From NCBI GenBank assembly GCA_001603665.1, contig LUZN01000005.1, positions 21,406 to 85,405 on the forward strand: a stretch of 64,000 nt of DNA, given 5' to 3'. Within the stretch, counting starts at the first letter, position 1. Each line of letters starts with the position of its first letter. The translations under genes were made by a program, and so were the position numbers. This stretch comes from Bacteroidales bacterium Bact_22 (lineage in GTDB: Bacteria; Bacteroidota; Bacteroidia; Bacteroidales; F082). Below, piece after piece: positions 40,221 to 43,388 of this stretch. Below the pieces are notes generated by a model. It saw only the letters and a program-made list of their open reading frames with translations, ran no database searches and was not told the DNA's origin.

Positions 40221-40556
40221 CTACATCACAGCTCTCATTAAACTTTCTTTAACAAAAGCGTTAAGCGAGATACCCTCAGCTTGCGCCATGGCAGCAGCTT
40301 TAGCGTGCAGTTCAACAGGAATTCTAACATTGAAACTTCCGCTGTAAGATTTGTGAAGTTCAATTCCATTGGCTTTGCAATGTTCGATGTAATCGTCAAC
40401 AGCATTGACAAAATCGGCCTTAAGCTCTGATAAAGTCTGCCCCTCATAGGTTATCAAAACGCCTTTATCAAGCCCGAGAACTTTTCCGTAGAGGGTGTCG
40501 TCCTCCAGCTCGGCTTCAATGCTCCCAATAAATCCTTTATACTTTAGTGTTTCCAT
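40221..40556 (-). CDS. hicB: Type II toxin-antitoxin system HicB family antitoxin
   Basis: 'YKGFIGSIEAELEDDTLYGKVLGLDKGVLITYEGQTLSELKADFVNAVDDYIEHCKANG', RHH 'KSYSGSFNVRIPVELHAKAAAMAQAEGISLNAFVKESL'. Confidence 0.92.
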   Translation of the reverse strand: METLKYKGFIGSIEAELEDDTLYGKVLGLDKGVLITYEGQTLSELKADFVNAVDDYIEHCKANGIELHKSYSGSFNVRIPVELHAKAAAMAQAEGISLNAFVKESLMRAVM

Positions 40557-40557
40557 A

Positions 40558-40815
40558 TTAAATCAGGTCGTTATTTTGTAAATATATTACGATGTCTTTC
40601 AATGCATTAGGTTTGATTATCGATGTGGGATGAGGCTTGTGTGCCAAATATTGCAACTGTTTTTCGCGATTATAAAACCTTATCCTTGATCCTGATGTTT
40701 TTCCCTTGTTGTCAATCTCAAATCCTAACTGAACTAGCAATGACTCCAATTCCGCAAACGTAAAATCCTTCGGCAACATCAACAACCGCTGTACCAACTT
40801 CTCTTTCTTACTCAT
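40558..40815 (-). CDS. hicA: Type II toxin-antitoxin system HicA family toxin
   Basis: 'FTFAELESLLVQLGFEIDNKGKTSGSRIRFYN...LAHKPHPTSIIKPNALKDIVIYLQ'. Confidence 0.92.
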   Translation of the reverse strand: MSKKEKLVQRLLMLPKDFTFAELESLLVQLGFEIDNKGKTSGSRIRFYNREKQLQYLAHKPHPTSIIKPNALKDIVIYLQNNDLI

Positions 40816-40889
40816 ACTTCTTGTAACTATATTTCAGTTGCAAAATTAAGAATAATTTTTGAATTGTCAACCATTTTTTCAAAATATTT

Positions 40890-40919
40890 TTGTTTTTTAC
40901 CAAAAAATCATTACCTTTG
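40890..40919 (+). promoter_or_regulatory. Bacteroidota-type promoter (TTG -19- TACCTTTG) upstream of R-M operon
   Basis: TTG 40890-40892, TACCTTTG 40912-40919. Confidence 0.65.
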
Positions 40920-40979
40920 CATCGTAAACAAACACATAAACGAAGAAACAGAGAAAAATAATTAACATAATGTAAATCA

Positions 40980-41199
40980 TAGCGTTTGCTATTTGTCTAT
41001 TCGCAGTGAAACGTAGGAAATTTCAAGAATATGCAAATAAAGAAAGAAGCAAGAGCAAGCACCCGTTATGCGGGCATCTTGTCTTTCTTTTGGCATGTCC
41101 TACGGCCACACTGCGAGCAAGTTTGCCCGCAGTTGTTTTTATTGGTCGTAGATAATGAATATGAAAGATGGCATAACGCGCAAATAGCAAGCTTATGCC
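40980..41199 (+). ncRNA. Highly structured leader / candidate cis-regulatory RNA abutting the methyltransferase start codon
   Basis: 12-bp closing helix 40984-40995/41181-41192; inner compound hairpin 41001-41116; start-codon hairpin 41170-41176/41193-41199. Confidence 0.55.
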
Positions 41200-42280
41200 A
41201 ATAGAAATTCAAAAAGACATTATTCTTAAAGGCGATTGCCTTGAAATTCTAAAATCGTTTCCGGATAATTCTGTAGATTTGGTTTTTGCTGATCCACCTT
41301 ATAATATGCAAACTGAAGGTGAACTGCTTAGAACTGATGGATCATCATTTAATGGCGTTACAGACAAATGGGATAAATTCGAAGATTTGCACGCTTACGA
41401 TGATTTTTCTATAAAATGGCTCCAGGAATGTAAAAGAGTTTTAAAAAAGGACGGTGCAATATGGGTGATTGGTTCTTTCCAGAATATATTCCGTTTAGGA
41501 TACATCATGCAAGATTTGGGGTTTTGGATACTTAACGATGTTATTTGGTCAAAGCCCAATGCAGTACCTAATTTTGGCGGGACTCGTTTTCAAAACTCGC
41601 ACGAAACATTGATATGGTGCTCAAAAAGCAAAAATGCGAAGTATCATTTCAACTACAAAACGATGAAACATATCAATGGTGACAAGCAGATGAAAAGCGT
41701 ATGGGATATTGGAATTTGCATCGGAAATGAAAGATTAAAAGACTCTGATGGAAGGAAGATACATTCTACGCAAAAACCGGAGCAATTGTTGTATAATGTG
41801 ATATTATCTTCTACCGAAAAAGGAGATTTGGTTTTGGATCCATTTTTTGGAACAGGGACAACAGGTGTTATAGCAAAACGTCTTGGTCGTCATTATATCG
41901 GAATCGAAAGAGAGGATGCATACATTGAAGCCGCAACAAAACGGCTTAATAGTGTTCAGCTGGACTTAGATACAGACTTGATAGATAACACATATGAAGC
42001 CAAACCACCACGTTACTCTATTAAAAAACTTATTGATTTGGGTTTCTTGTCTGTTGGGCAAATGCTTTATAGCAAAGACAAAAAGTATTCGGCTGAAATC
42101 TGTCCAAATGGAAATGTTAAAGTTGGAGATTTTGAGGCCTCAATACATAAGGCTTCAGCAAAGTTTCTTAATAGAAGCAATAACAATGGCTGGGATTATT
42201 TCTGGTGTGAGTATAAGGGTAATTTTGTTGACATCAACTCACTTCGCTATTTAGCTGATAAGAAAGGAGGTCTGAAATGA
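41195..42280 (+). CDS. Site-specific adenine DNA methyltransferase, M.HinfI-like (predicted GANTC) with C-terminal RAMA-like domain
   Basis: 'ILKGDCLEILKSFPDNSVDLVFADPPYNMQTEGELLRTDGSSFNGVTDKWDKF', 'DPFFGTGTTGVIAKRLGRHYIGIERE', C-term 'NNNGWDYFWCEYKGNFVDINSLRY'; strong recognisable resemblance to M.HinfI. Confidence 0.92.
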   Translation: MPIEIQKDIILKGDCLEILKSFPDNSVDLVFADPPYNMQTEGELLRTDGSSFNGVTDKWDKFEDLHAYDDFSIKWLQECKRVLKKDGAIWVIGSFQNIFRLGYIMQDLGFWILNDVIWSKPNAVPNFGGTRFQNSHETLIWCSKSKNAKYHFNYKTMKHINGDKQMKSVWDIGICIGNERLKDSDGRKIHSTQKPEQLLYNVILSSTEKGDLVLDPFFGTGTTGVIAKRLGRHYIGIEREDAYIEAATKRLNSVQLDLDTDLIDNTYEAKPPRYSIKKLIDLGFLSVGQMLYSKDKKYSAEICPNGNVKVGDFEASIHKASAKFLNRSNNNGWDYFWCEYKGNFVDINSLRYLADKKGGLK

Positions 42281-43149
42281 TTCTGGATTATGAATATTTT
42301 AAAAAGACCTTGAATGAAAAGTTGTTTGAGGATAGTTATAGTGATTTGATTAAGAAAATAGCGGAATATCCAGAGAGATACATAGGTTTATTCCGTCCGA
42401 CTAAACCTAAAACGAAACTAATCCAGAACATCACACAATCCCATGAAATCCGTTTCGGAGACGCTTTGGAATTCATATTCGAGAGGTATTTTGAAGCTTC
42501 TGGGTTTAAATTACACGACAAACGTTTCTATTCTTATGACAATAAAGATTTAAGTATTGACCAACTTTTTAGCAAAGGTGATACGCTTTATATGATAGAA
42601 CAGAAAGTTCGTGATGATCATGATAGTACTAAAAAGGCAGGACAATTTGATAATTTTGAAACTAAATATTACGCATTAACCAGACGCTATAGCGGAGTCA
42701 ACATTATTCCGATAATGTGGTTTATAGATGATTCGCTTACCAAAAACAAGCGATACTATATTGGTAGGATGGAGAGTATGGCATCGGATTACGGTTGCTC
42801 GCCAAAACTATATTACGGTGAATCAATGTTTAATAGATATGGCGGAATTAGTGATTTTGACAGTGATATATGGGATGAAACCATAGAGTATTTGGAGAAA
42901 TGGAAACAAACTTTGCCAGATATGCCTGAAATAAATTTCGATAGTAATGCTGAAACTGTATTTGAAGAAATAAAAGATTTGTCTCCAGTAATCTATCGTA
43001 AATTGTTGCAGAATGAAGACGTTATACAACAAATATTCCCTATAATCTTTCCGGACAATAAAGTGTTAAACATGCTTTGTGACTATTTTATGTCAAAACG
43101 AGAGCATGTTTATCATTCATTGGCAAGATATGTAACTATGTGTGTATAA
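42277..43149 (+). CDS. Cognate type II restriction endonuclease (HinfI-like by partner)
   Basis: ATGA overlap with methylase; 'TLYMIEQKVRDDHDSTKKAGQFDNFETKY' nuclease-like core (E-x-K). Confidence 0.8.
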   Translation: MILDYEYFKKTLNEKLFEDSYSDLIKKIAEYPERYIGLFRPTKPKTKLIQNITQSHEIRFGDALEFIFERYFEASGFKLHDKRFYSYDNKDLSIDQLFSKGDTLYMIEQKVRDDHDSTKKAGQFDNFETKYYALTRRYSGVNIIPIMWFIDDSLTKNKRYYIGRMESMASDYGCSPKLYYGESMFNRYGGISDFDSDIWDETIEYLEKWKQTLPDMPEINFDSNAETVFEEIKDLSPVIYRKLLQNEDVIQQIFPIIFPDNKVLNMLCDYFMSKREHVYHSLARYVTMCV

Positions 43150-43189
43150 TTCTAGGCTTCGCCCCCACGTCGCTATGCGGCGCGTTGGG

Positions 43190-43340
43190 AAGGGCCCGAA
43201 TAGCGGGGCAGCGGTGGCCCAAGAGACGGACTAAGGCGTTGATACTCAAGGATGGTCGATTTCGAAGAAATCTCTACACACAGCCATGAGAATCACCGCC
43301 TTAGGACGGCTGCAGCGGGGGTCCGTTTTATTCGGGCCTT
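43190..43340. repeat. Large imperfect inverted repeat / structured element 3' of the restriction gene
   Basis: GGCCCGAATA (43193-43202)/TATTCGGGCC (43329-43338); ACGGAC (43226-43231)/GTCCGT (43321-43326); CTAAGGCG (43231-43238)/CGCCTTAG (43297-43304). Confidence 0.7.
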
Positions 43341-43349
43341 GACTTTTTG

Positions 43350-43388
43350 GATACTTTTTTGTCAAGAAAAAAGTATCTCTTTTTCTTC
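43350..43388 (+). terminator. A/T-rich terminator-like hairpin
   Basis: GATACTTTTTT-GTCAAG-AAAAAAGTATC then TCTTTTTCTT. Confidence 0.6.

Follow-up and report, generated by a model that had tools for sequence, protein, structure and literature searches.

Riboswitches for c-di-GMP (GEMM) occur in multiple copies per genome ahead of diverse surface and accessory genes, as does the leader family described here. Restriction-modification (R-M) operons are known to be controlled by C proteins, by autoregulation by the MTase and by antisense RNAs, as in EcoRI and Eco29kI (PMC3874152); that review deals with antisense RNAs, and a term search of its text gave no structured leader. Among the Bacteroidota, new 5' elements of F. 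psychrophilum without an Rfam hit have been described, and the flavobacterial sRNA Rfp18 was reported to act in trans on protease mRNAs (PMC9723704). The open-access literature gave no description of the present leader family; preprints and subscription papers were outside this scope and a prior account is possible. As far as we found, structured leader RNAs controlling R-M operons are apparently undescribed.

The window is the whole stretch of DNA that was analysed, 64,000 nucleotides of a Bacteroidales contig. Its leader, at 40980-41199, lies immediately 5' of a HinfI-like methylase gene that starts at 41195, as an earlier note on this DNA had proposed. The methylase ORF (41195-42280) and the restriction-enzyme ORF (42277-43149) overlap, and the regulated unit in the window is probably the entire methylase-restriction operon. 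The suggestion of the same note that the RNA times methylase against nuclease expression did not hold up: the leader precedes the whole M-R operon, and its relatives precede HsdR, type I/IIG/III, XRE, TonB receptor and secreted-protein genes. A HicA/HicB-like toxin-antitoxin pair lies upstream of the R-M unit on the minus strand (window 40221-40815). On the 3' side of the restriction gene, window 43151-43377 is a structured tail of ~225 nt, a separate repeat element, found beside unrelated genes, with four full or partial matches in the window's genome and further ones in two other genomes (G048 and G121). A 57-codon ORF (41031-41204) crosses the leader into the start of the methylase gene; it was rejected as a leader peptide, being not conserved in relatives, where frame and starts differ.

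The minimum free energy of the leader in RNAfold was -74.5 kcal/mol, against -53.7 +/- 4.0 kcal/mol for the shuffled leader (z = -5.15), and 0 of 200 dinucleotide shuffles were equally good. All helices listed in the earlier note were found where it had placed them, and so was the promoter-like TACCTTTG at 40912-40919. Both strands of its outer 12-bp helix are present, but covariation is neither for nor against this helix because the 5' strand is invariant; the TATTTG half of that strand has an alternative pseudoknot with CAAATA (41034-41039). The hairpin CCCG-TTATG-CGGG is a covarying pairing but not the sole one, since GCGGGC (41070-41075) also pairs with GCCCGC (41125-41130). Similarly, TCCTACG (41098-41104) pairs with the upstream CGTAGGA as had been described, and has an alternative partner downstream, GGTCGTAG (41144-41151). 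The features referred to below are the following, with the basis of each in brackets.

40912-40919, plus strand: -7 element TACCTTTG of a Bacteroidota-type promoter (sequence; TAnnTTTG counts in relatives)
40964-40988, plus strand: conserved, lineage-specific 5' box, consensus AACATATTATWAATCATAGCGTTTG (relatives; missing in distant members)
40979-40992, plus strand: P1, small 5' hairpin ATAGC-GTTT-GCTAT (sequence; similar hairpins in distant members)
40990-40995, plus strand: X, TATTTG, pseudoknot strand with partner Y0 (X:Y0 covariation)
41001-41008, plus strand: P2 5' strand TCGCAGTG (P2 covariation in both sets)
41012-41018, plus strand: A, the P3 5' strand CGTAGGA (A:B covariation, swap tests)
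41034-41039, plus strand: Y0, CAAATA, partner of X (sequence; swap tests)
41039-41054, plus strand: P4 5' strands AAAGAAAGA and CAAGA (sequence; P4 covariation)
41062-41065, plus strand: t5, CCCG, 5' strand of the P4 tip hairpin (t5:t3 covariation)
41070-41075, plus strand: t3, GCGGGC, strand common to the t5 and p3 pairings (t3:p3 counts, swap tests)
41077-41090, plus strand: P4 3' strands TCTTG and TCTTTCTTT (sequence; P4 covariation)
41098-41104, plus strand: B, TCCTACG, pairing with A upstream or C downstream (swap tests, folding)
41109-41116, plus strand: P2 3' strand CACTGCGA (P2 covariation)
41111-41132, plus strand: P5 hairpin CTGCGAGC-AAGTTT-GCCCGCAG (p5:p3 pairing; bases common with the P2 3' strand)
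41125-41130, plus strand: p3 core GCCCGC within P5 (t3:p3 covariation)
41133-41140, plus strand: U-run TTGTTTTT of the terminator-like end (U-run counts in both sets)
41144-41151, plus strand: C, GGTCGTAG, alternative partner of B (B:C covaries in the rumen set only)
41170-41199, plus strand: start-codon hairpin GGCATAA/TTATGCC (loop contains CAAATAGCAAGC, complement of the 5' strand)
41195-42280, plus strand: regulated gene 1, CcrM/HinfI-like N6-adenine methylase (N6_N4_Mtase and RAMA)
42277-43149, plus strand: regulated gene 2, HpyAIV-family restriction endonuclease

Relatives of the leader were identified by BLAST in 60 of 173 genomes of the window's taxonomic family and have the ~25-nt 5' box in common. 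Exact box patterns were present in 112 stretches of Bacteroidales genomes, mainly ruminant and horse-gut MAGs. The viral contigs searched had no such pattern, and the plasmid and phage collections searched yielded no relatives of note. About 109 of the 152 box sites carry the long structured leader, and a short form, with the box immediately 5' of the gene, is found mainly ahead of YhcG/DUF1016-type genes. Boxes without the structured part also form tandem units of ~1.1 kb before YhcG/DUF1016 nuclease-like genes (L032, L033, L034, L035, L071 and others), often upstream of an R-M gene bearing the full leader. YhcG was rejected as a trans-factor, its presence in 88 of 99 genomes of the genus making co-occurrence uninformative. 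One relative (L006, 122-336) has an intact core and lacks the AT-rich box, which is thus replaceable, and near one leader-family member there is an rteR sRNA (Rfam RF04181; L277, 30-112). The genes after the relatives encode M, HsdR, type I/IIG/III and XRE proteins. Pfam assignments for the 91 proteins encoded after non-redundant long leaders (N6_N4 methylase 24, N6_Mtase 13, HsdR N-terminus 7, Eco57I 7, C5 methylase 5, ResIII 2, MmeI 2, and others) indicate that about half or more are restriction-modification proteins, in a set that was gathered via the window's own 5' box and is biased to its sub-family. The families found in these 91 proteins include no reverse-transcriptase domain, which goes against the retron-like reading of the earlier note.

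Covariation was measured in alignment A1, which consists of 94 related leaders from rumen and gut Bacteroidales, and in a largely separate distant set, A4, fitted to the covariance model. In A1, 85.1% of cells were paired, 38 of 42 pairs had two-sided changes, two-sided cells numbered 779 against 285 shuffled, and the score was 0.499 against 0.226 shuffled, with slid controls at or below 0.164; in A4, 90.6% of cells were paired and the score was 0.657 against 0.198. P2 was paired in 94.6% of cells in A1, with double changes in every pair, and in 98.3% in the distant set; P3 (A:B) reached 95.3% and 99.8%, the tip t5:t3 94.9% (A1), and p5:p3 73% in the rumen set and 64% in the distant set. A direct count for t3:p3 gave 95.2% paired, double changes in 6 of 7 pairs and 41 two-sided cells against 8.2 shuffled, and was weaker on the looser distant alignment. 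We also used partner-swap tests, for which rough regions suffice for the tested strands and in which partners are swapped among any members or among near relatives alone. In the rumen set the z values (any/near-relative) were -19.9/-9.8 for A:B, -13.8/-6.7 for Y:Z, -9.6/-4.6 for t5:t3, -6.6/-4.6 for p5:p3, -11.4/-6.5 for t3:p3 and -10.5/-4.7 for B:C, each with 0/200 in the near-relative swap control, while A:C, X:Z, D:A, t5:p5 and t3:p5 gave no signal. Swap tests on 56 distant members confirmed A:B, P2, Y:Z, t5:t3 and t3:p3 (-9.6/-2.8 for the last) and gave -12.0/-7.8 for the X:Y0 pseudoknot, which is weaker in the rumen set; B:C showed no covariation there (z -0.6). Covariation was weak for the start-codon hairpin (swap z -5.0/-2.4, rumen set) and for the H_A hairpin (TGAAA/TTTCA). 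The earlier note had named covariation and the occurrence of homologous leaders as tests of its reading; both tests were run, strong covariation and homologues were found, and the reading was not refuted.

A covariance model of the core alone (R1, P2 to P5, without the box) extended the family beyond the relatives with the box. Members were present in 97 of 172 genomes of the window's taxonomic family and in 25 of 297 genomes sampled over the phylum Bacteroidota (13 of 141 genera), the carriers in this sample belonging mostly to other families of the same class and two of them to other classes. On 163 kb of unrelated loci R1 gave three matches, all strong, and no weak ones up to E = 10. A finer scan found 24 members in one genome (G061), 21 in another (G132) and 2 in the window's genome; the second member there (L285, G000:C61:4939-5062, minus strand) precedes an unknown ORF and a secreted-protein gene of the LEVKEGSFKEVPGFVNIN family, which also follows other copies. 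The distant members lack the 5' box and have hairpins such as TAGC-GTTA-GCTA, AAGC-GTTTTT-GCTT and GAAGC-ATTC-GCTTT at the P1 position. The genes after them encode SusC/TonB receptors (8 of 55 with Plug), response regulators, FecR, OmpH, CsgG and lipoprotein-like ORFs, with R-M genes in the minority. In G061 and G132, which were fully scanned, 27 of 28 members have the following gene on their own strand, usually at most 150 nt away. Rfam 15 gave no match over the window leader (gathering; E <= 10) or over 40 related loci (E <= 1). On this comparative evidence, the leader is a member of a covarying RNA family, absent from Rfam, that occurs across the Bacteroidota.

The promoter motif TAnnTTTG was found upstream of the box in 56 of 94 leaders, mostly at 42-70 nt (reverse-strand control 17), and between p3 and the ATG in only 2 of 90. 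Because the motif lies ~50 nt upstream and none lies between the leader and the start codon, the gene would be reached by read-through. A TTTT occurs within 10 nt after P5 in 69 of 94 leaders (control 6%) and a T-rich stretch at the 3' end of 50 of 56 distant members (control 26%); roughly one rumen leader in four has no U-run, and P5 was not picked up when the window was scanned with a simple terminator search. Homologous leaders, strong covariation, upstream promoters and none after the leader all bear out a cis-acting structured RNA in the 5' UTR, as the earlier note had suggested, and the general conclusion that this is a cis-regulatory leader RNA is strongly supported.

The core fold derived from comparative sequence is comprised of P2, P3 (A:B), P4 with its tip hairpin t5:t3, and the X:Y0 pseudoknot. 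Strand t3 can pair either with t5, inside the fold, or with p3, which lies against the U-run. The two pairings exclude each other, both covary, and they are nearly equal in energy (-11.4 and -11.6 in the rumen set; -13.5 and -12.8 in the distant set). The trait common to both sets is this sharing of t3 by t5 and p3, with p3 abutting the U-run. We consider it probable that the leader, pseudoknotted, cis-acting and of a family outside Rfam, is a riboswitch-like transcription attenuator. The folded core would hold t3 in the tip (t5:t3), leaving p3 free or weakly paired, and the polymerase would go on; once t3 is released, transcription would be halted by t3:p3 together with the U-run, or in some members by p5:p3. 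In the window's lineage the later strand C would take B from A and lock in the read-through fold, and the balance would be tipped by some signal, which may be a small molecule, a protein or an RNA. Thermodynamic folding of nascent RNAs up to the U-run gave A:B in 99% of 88 leaders, and full-length leaders preferred B:C in 76 of 88, with a median difference of 3.4 kcal/mol; the window's full-length leader, in which P2 and P5 overlap in bases, is an exception and keeps A:B by 2.9 kcal/mol. The B:C exchange was rejected as a general mechanism, B:C being absent from distant members. The stretch inside the t3:p3 pairing is about 50 nt or longer, an uncommon length in an intrinsic terminator; since thermodynamic folding alone does not favour the pairing, it may be a pseudoknot instead of a terminator stem. 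It is also possible, although we hold this only tentatively, that the family is a Bacteroidota-wide riboswitch class (up to 24 copies per genome) that senses one global signal, such as a nucleotide second messenger, to which a self-contained t5/t3/p3 exchange couples surface receptors, secreted proteins and R-M defence.

Control could instead act on translation, with the 5' strand GTTTGCTATTTG pairing beside the start codon in competition with the start-codon hairpin and the A/B/C exchange setting ribosome access. When the complementarity of the 5' strand was scored against the 45 nt before the ATG, its partners were stronger than at control genes (80% against 30% below -8 kcal/mol), the window has the start-codon hairpin, and pre:ATG covaries weakly. 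We regard this as unlikely, since start-codon accessibility showed no difference between the A:B and B:C states (86 leaders, p = 0.15), the invariance of the 5' strand puts its pairing beyond a covariation test, and distant members reach the U-run well before the gene. A small RNA ending at the U-run and acting in trans, either free-standing or 5'-UTR-derived and with the gene behind it incidental, would agree with the terminator-like 3' end and with those distant members that lie 240-440 nt ahead of a gene and could be free-standing sRNAs. The same-strand gene directly behind nearly all members, the failure to find a promoter motif between leader and gene in the window's set and the strong differences between paralogue helices within one genome make it a distinctly unlikely reading. 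Processive antitermination in the manner of phage put or EAR/LoaP, where the fold recruits or modifies RNA polymerase past terminators and polarity with no ligand, is suggested by a promoter-proximal, pseudoknotted element ahead of accessory operons (R-M, surface proteins) that may be prone to Rho-dependent polarity; with no matching Rfam model, and with covarying alternative pairings that suggest a switch and not a single fixed fold, we judge it very improbable.

The remaining alternative is an element acting as DNA: a recombination site, a cassette site or a mobile-element terminus (an integron attC-like or Xer/dif-like box). It would be in keeping with the tandem boxes ~1.1 kb apart before YhcG-type genes and with the differing places of the R-M unit in different genomes: the unit (40883-43377, 2.5 kb) shares 94.9% identity with a counterpart in G139 that lies at an unrelated position between different flanks, and in G073 the flanking genes are adjacent and the unit is missing. 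The HicA/HicB pair is also missing at the G073 site. Homology with G139 begins at window 40883, ~80 nt upstream of the box with the promoter included, and not at the inverted repeat, so that the leader is not the boundary of the moving unit and the mobile-element relic offered in the earlier note finds no support. From these alignments, the leader moves with its genes but is not the unit boundary. The homology boundary, the position of the promoter and the lack of the box in distant members led us to reject a dif/attC-like box. In addition, the tip helix changes via G-U (168 cells) and hardly via A-C (6 cells), an excess that indicates an RNA of this strand, the asymmetry being confined to the tip and not seen in other helices. 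We therefore give a DNA-level role almost no credence and retain transcription attenuation as the preferred reading.

A previously undescribed RNA family that reaches 24 copies per genome, in a phylum dominant in gut and environment, would lay open a regulon. Through it one could learn how defence and surface genes are tuned in Bacteroidota, and it would pose a ligand-identification problem that mutants and probing can address immediately. Like the retron msr-msd, the leader stands before an ORF and has an inverted repeat that closes an inner hairpin, but no reverse transcriptase is downstream and the genes are R-M, TonB and others. It shares with Rfp18, compared by description only, and with the F. 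psychrophilum 5' elements (PMC9723704) a conserved structure in Bacteroidota. As in the R-M control covered in PMC3874152, it would act on an R-M operon near its start; it differs from the systems found there in being a cis-acting structured leader common to unrelated genes. The architecture of the c-di-GMP (GEMM) riboswitches is different, and the leader has no Rfam match. There is also a likeness to transcription-attenuating riboswitches, which have the same 5'-UTR position, covarying core with pseudoknot, mutually exclusive pairings, and hairpin strand with U-run ahead of the gene. No Rfam 15 riboswitch class matches the leader, its downstream genes point to no single metabolite, and it is the tip of P4, itself part of the core, that competes for the terminator half.
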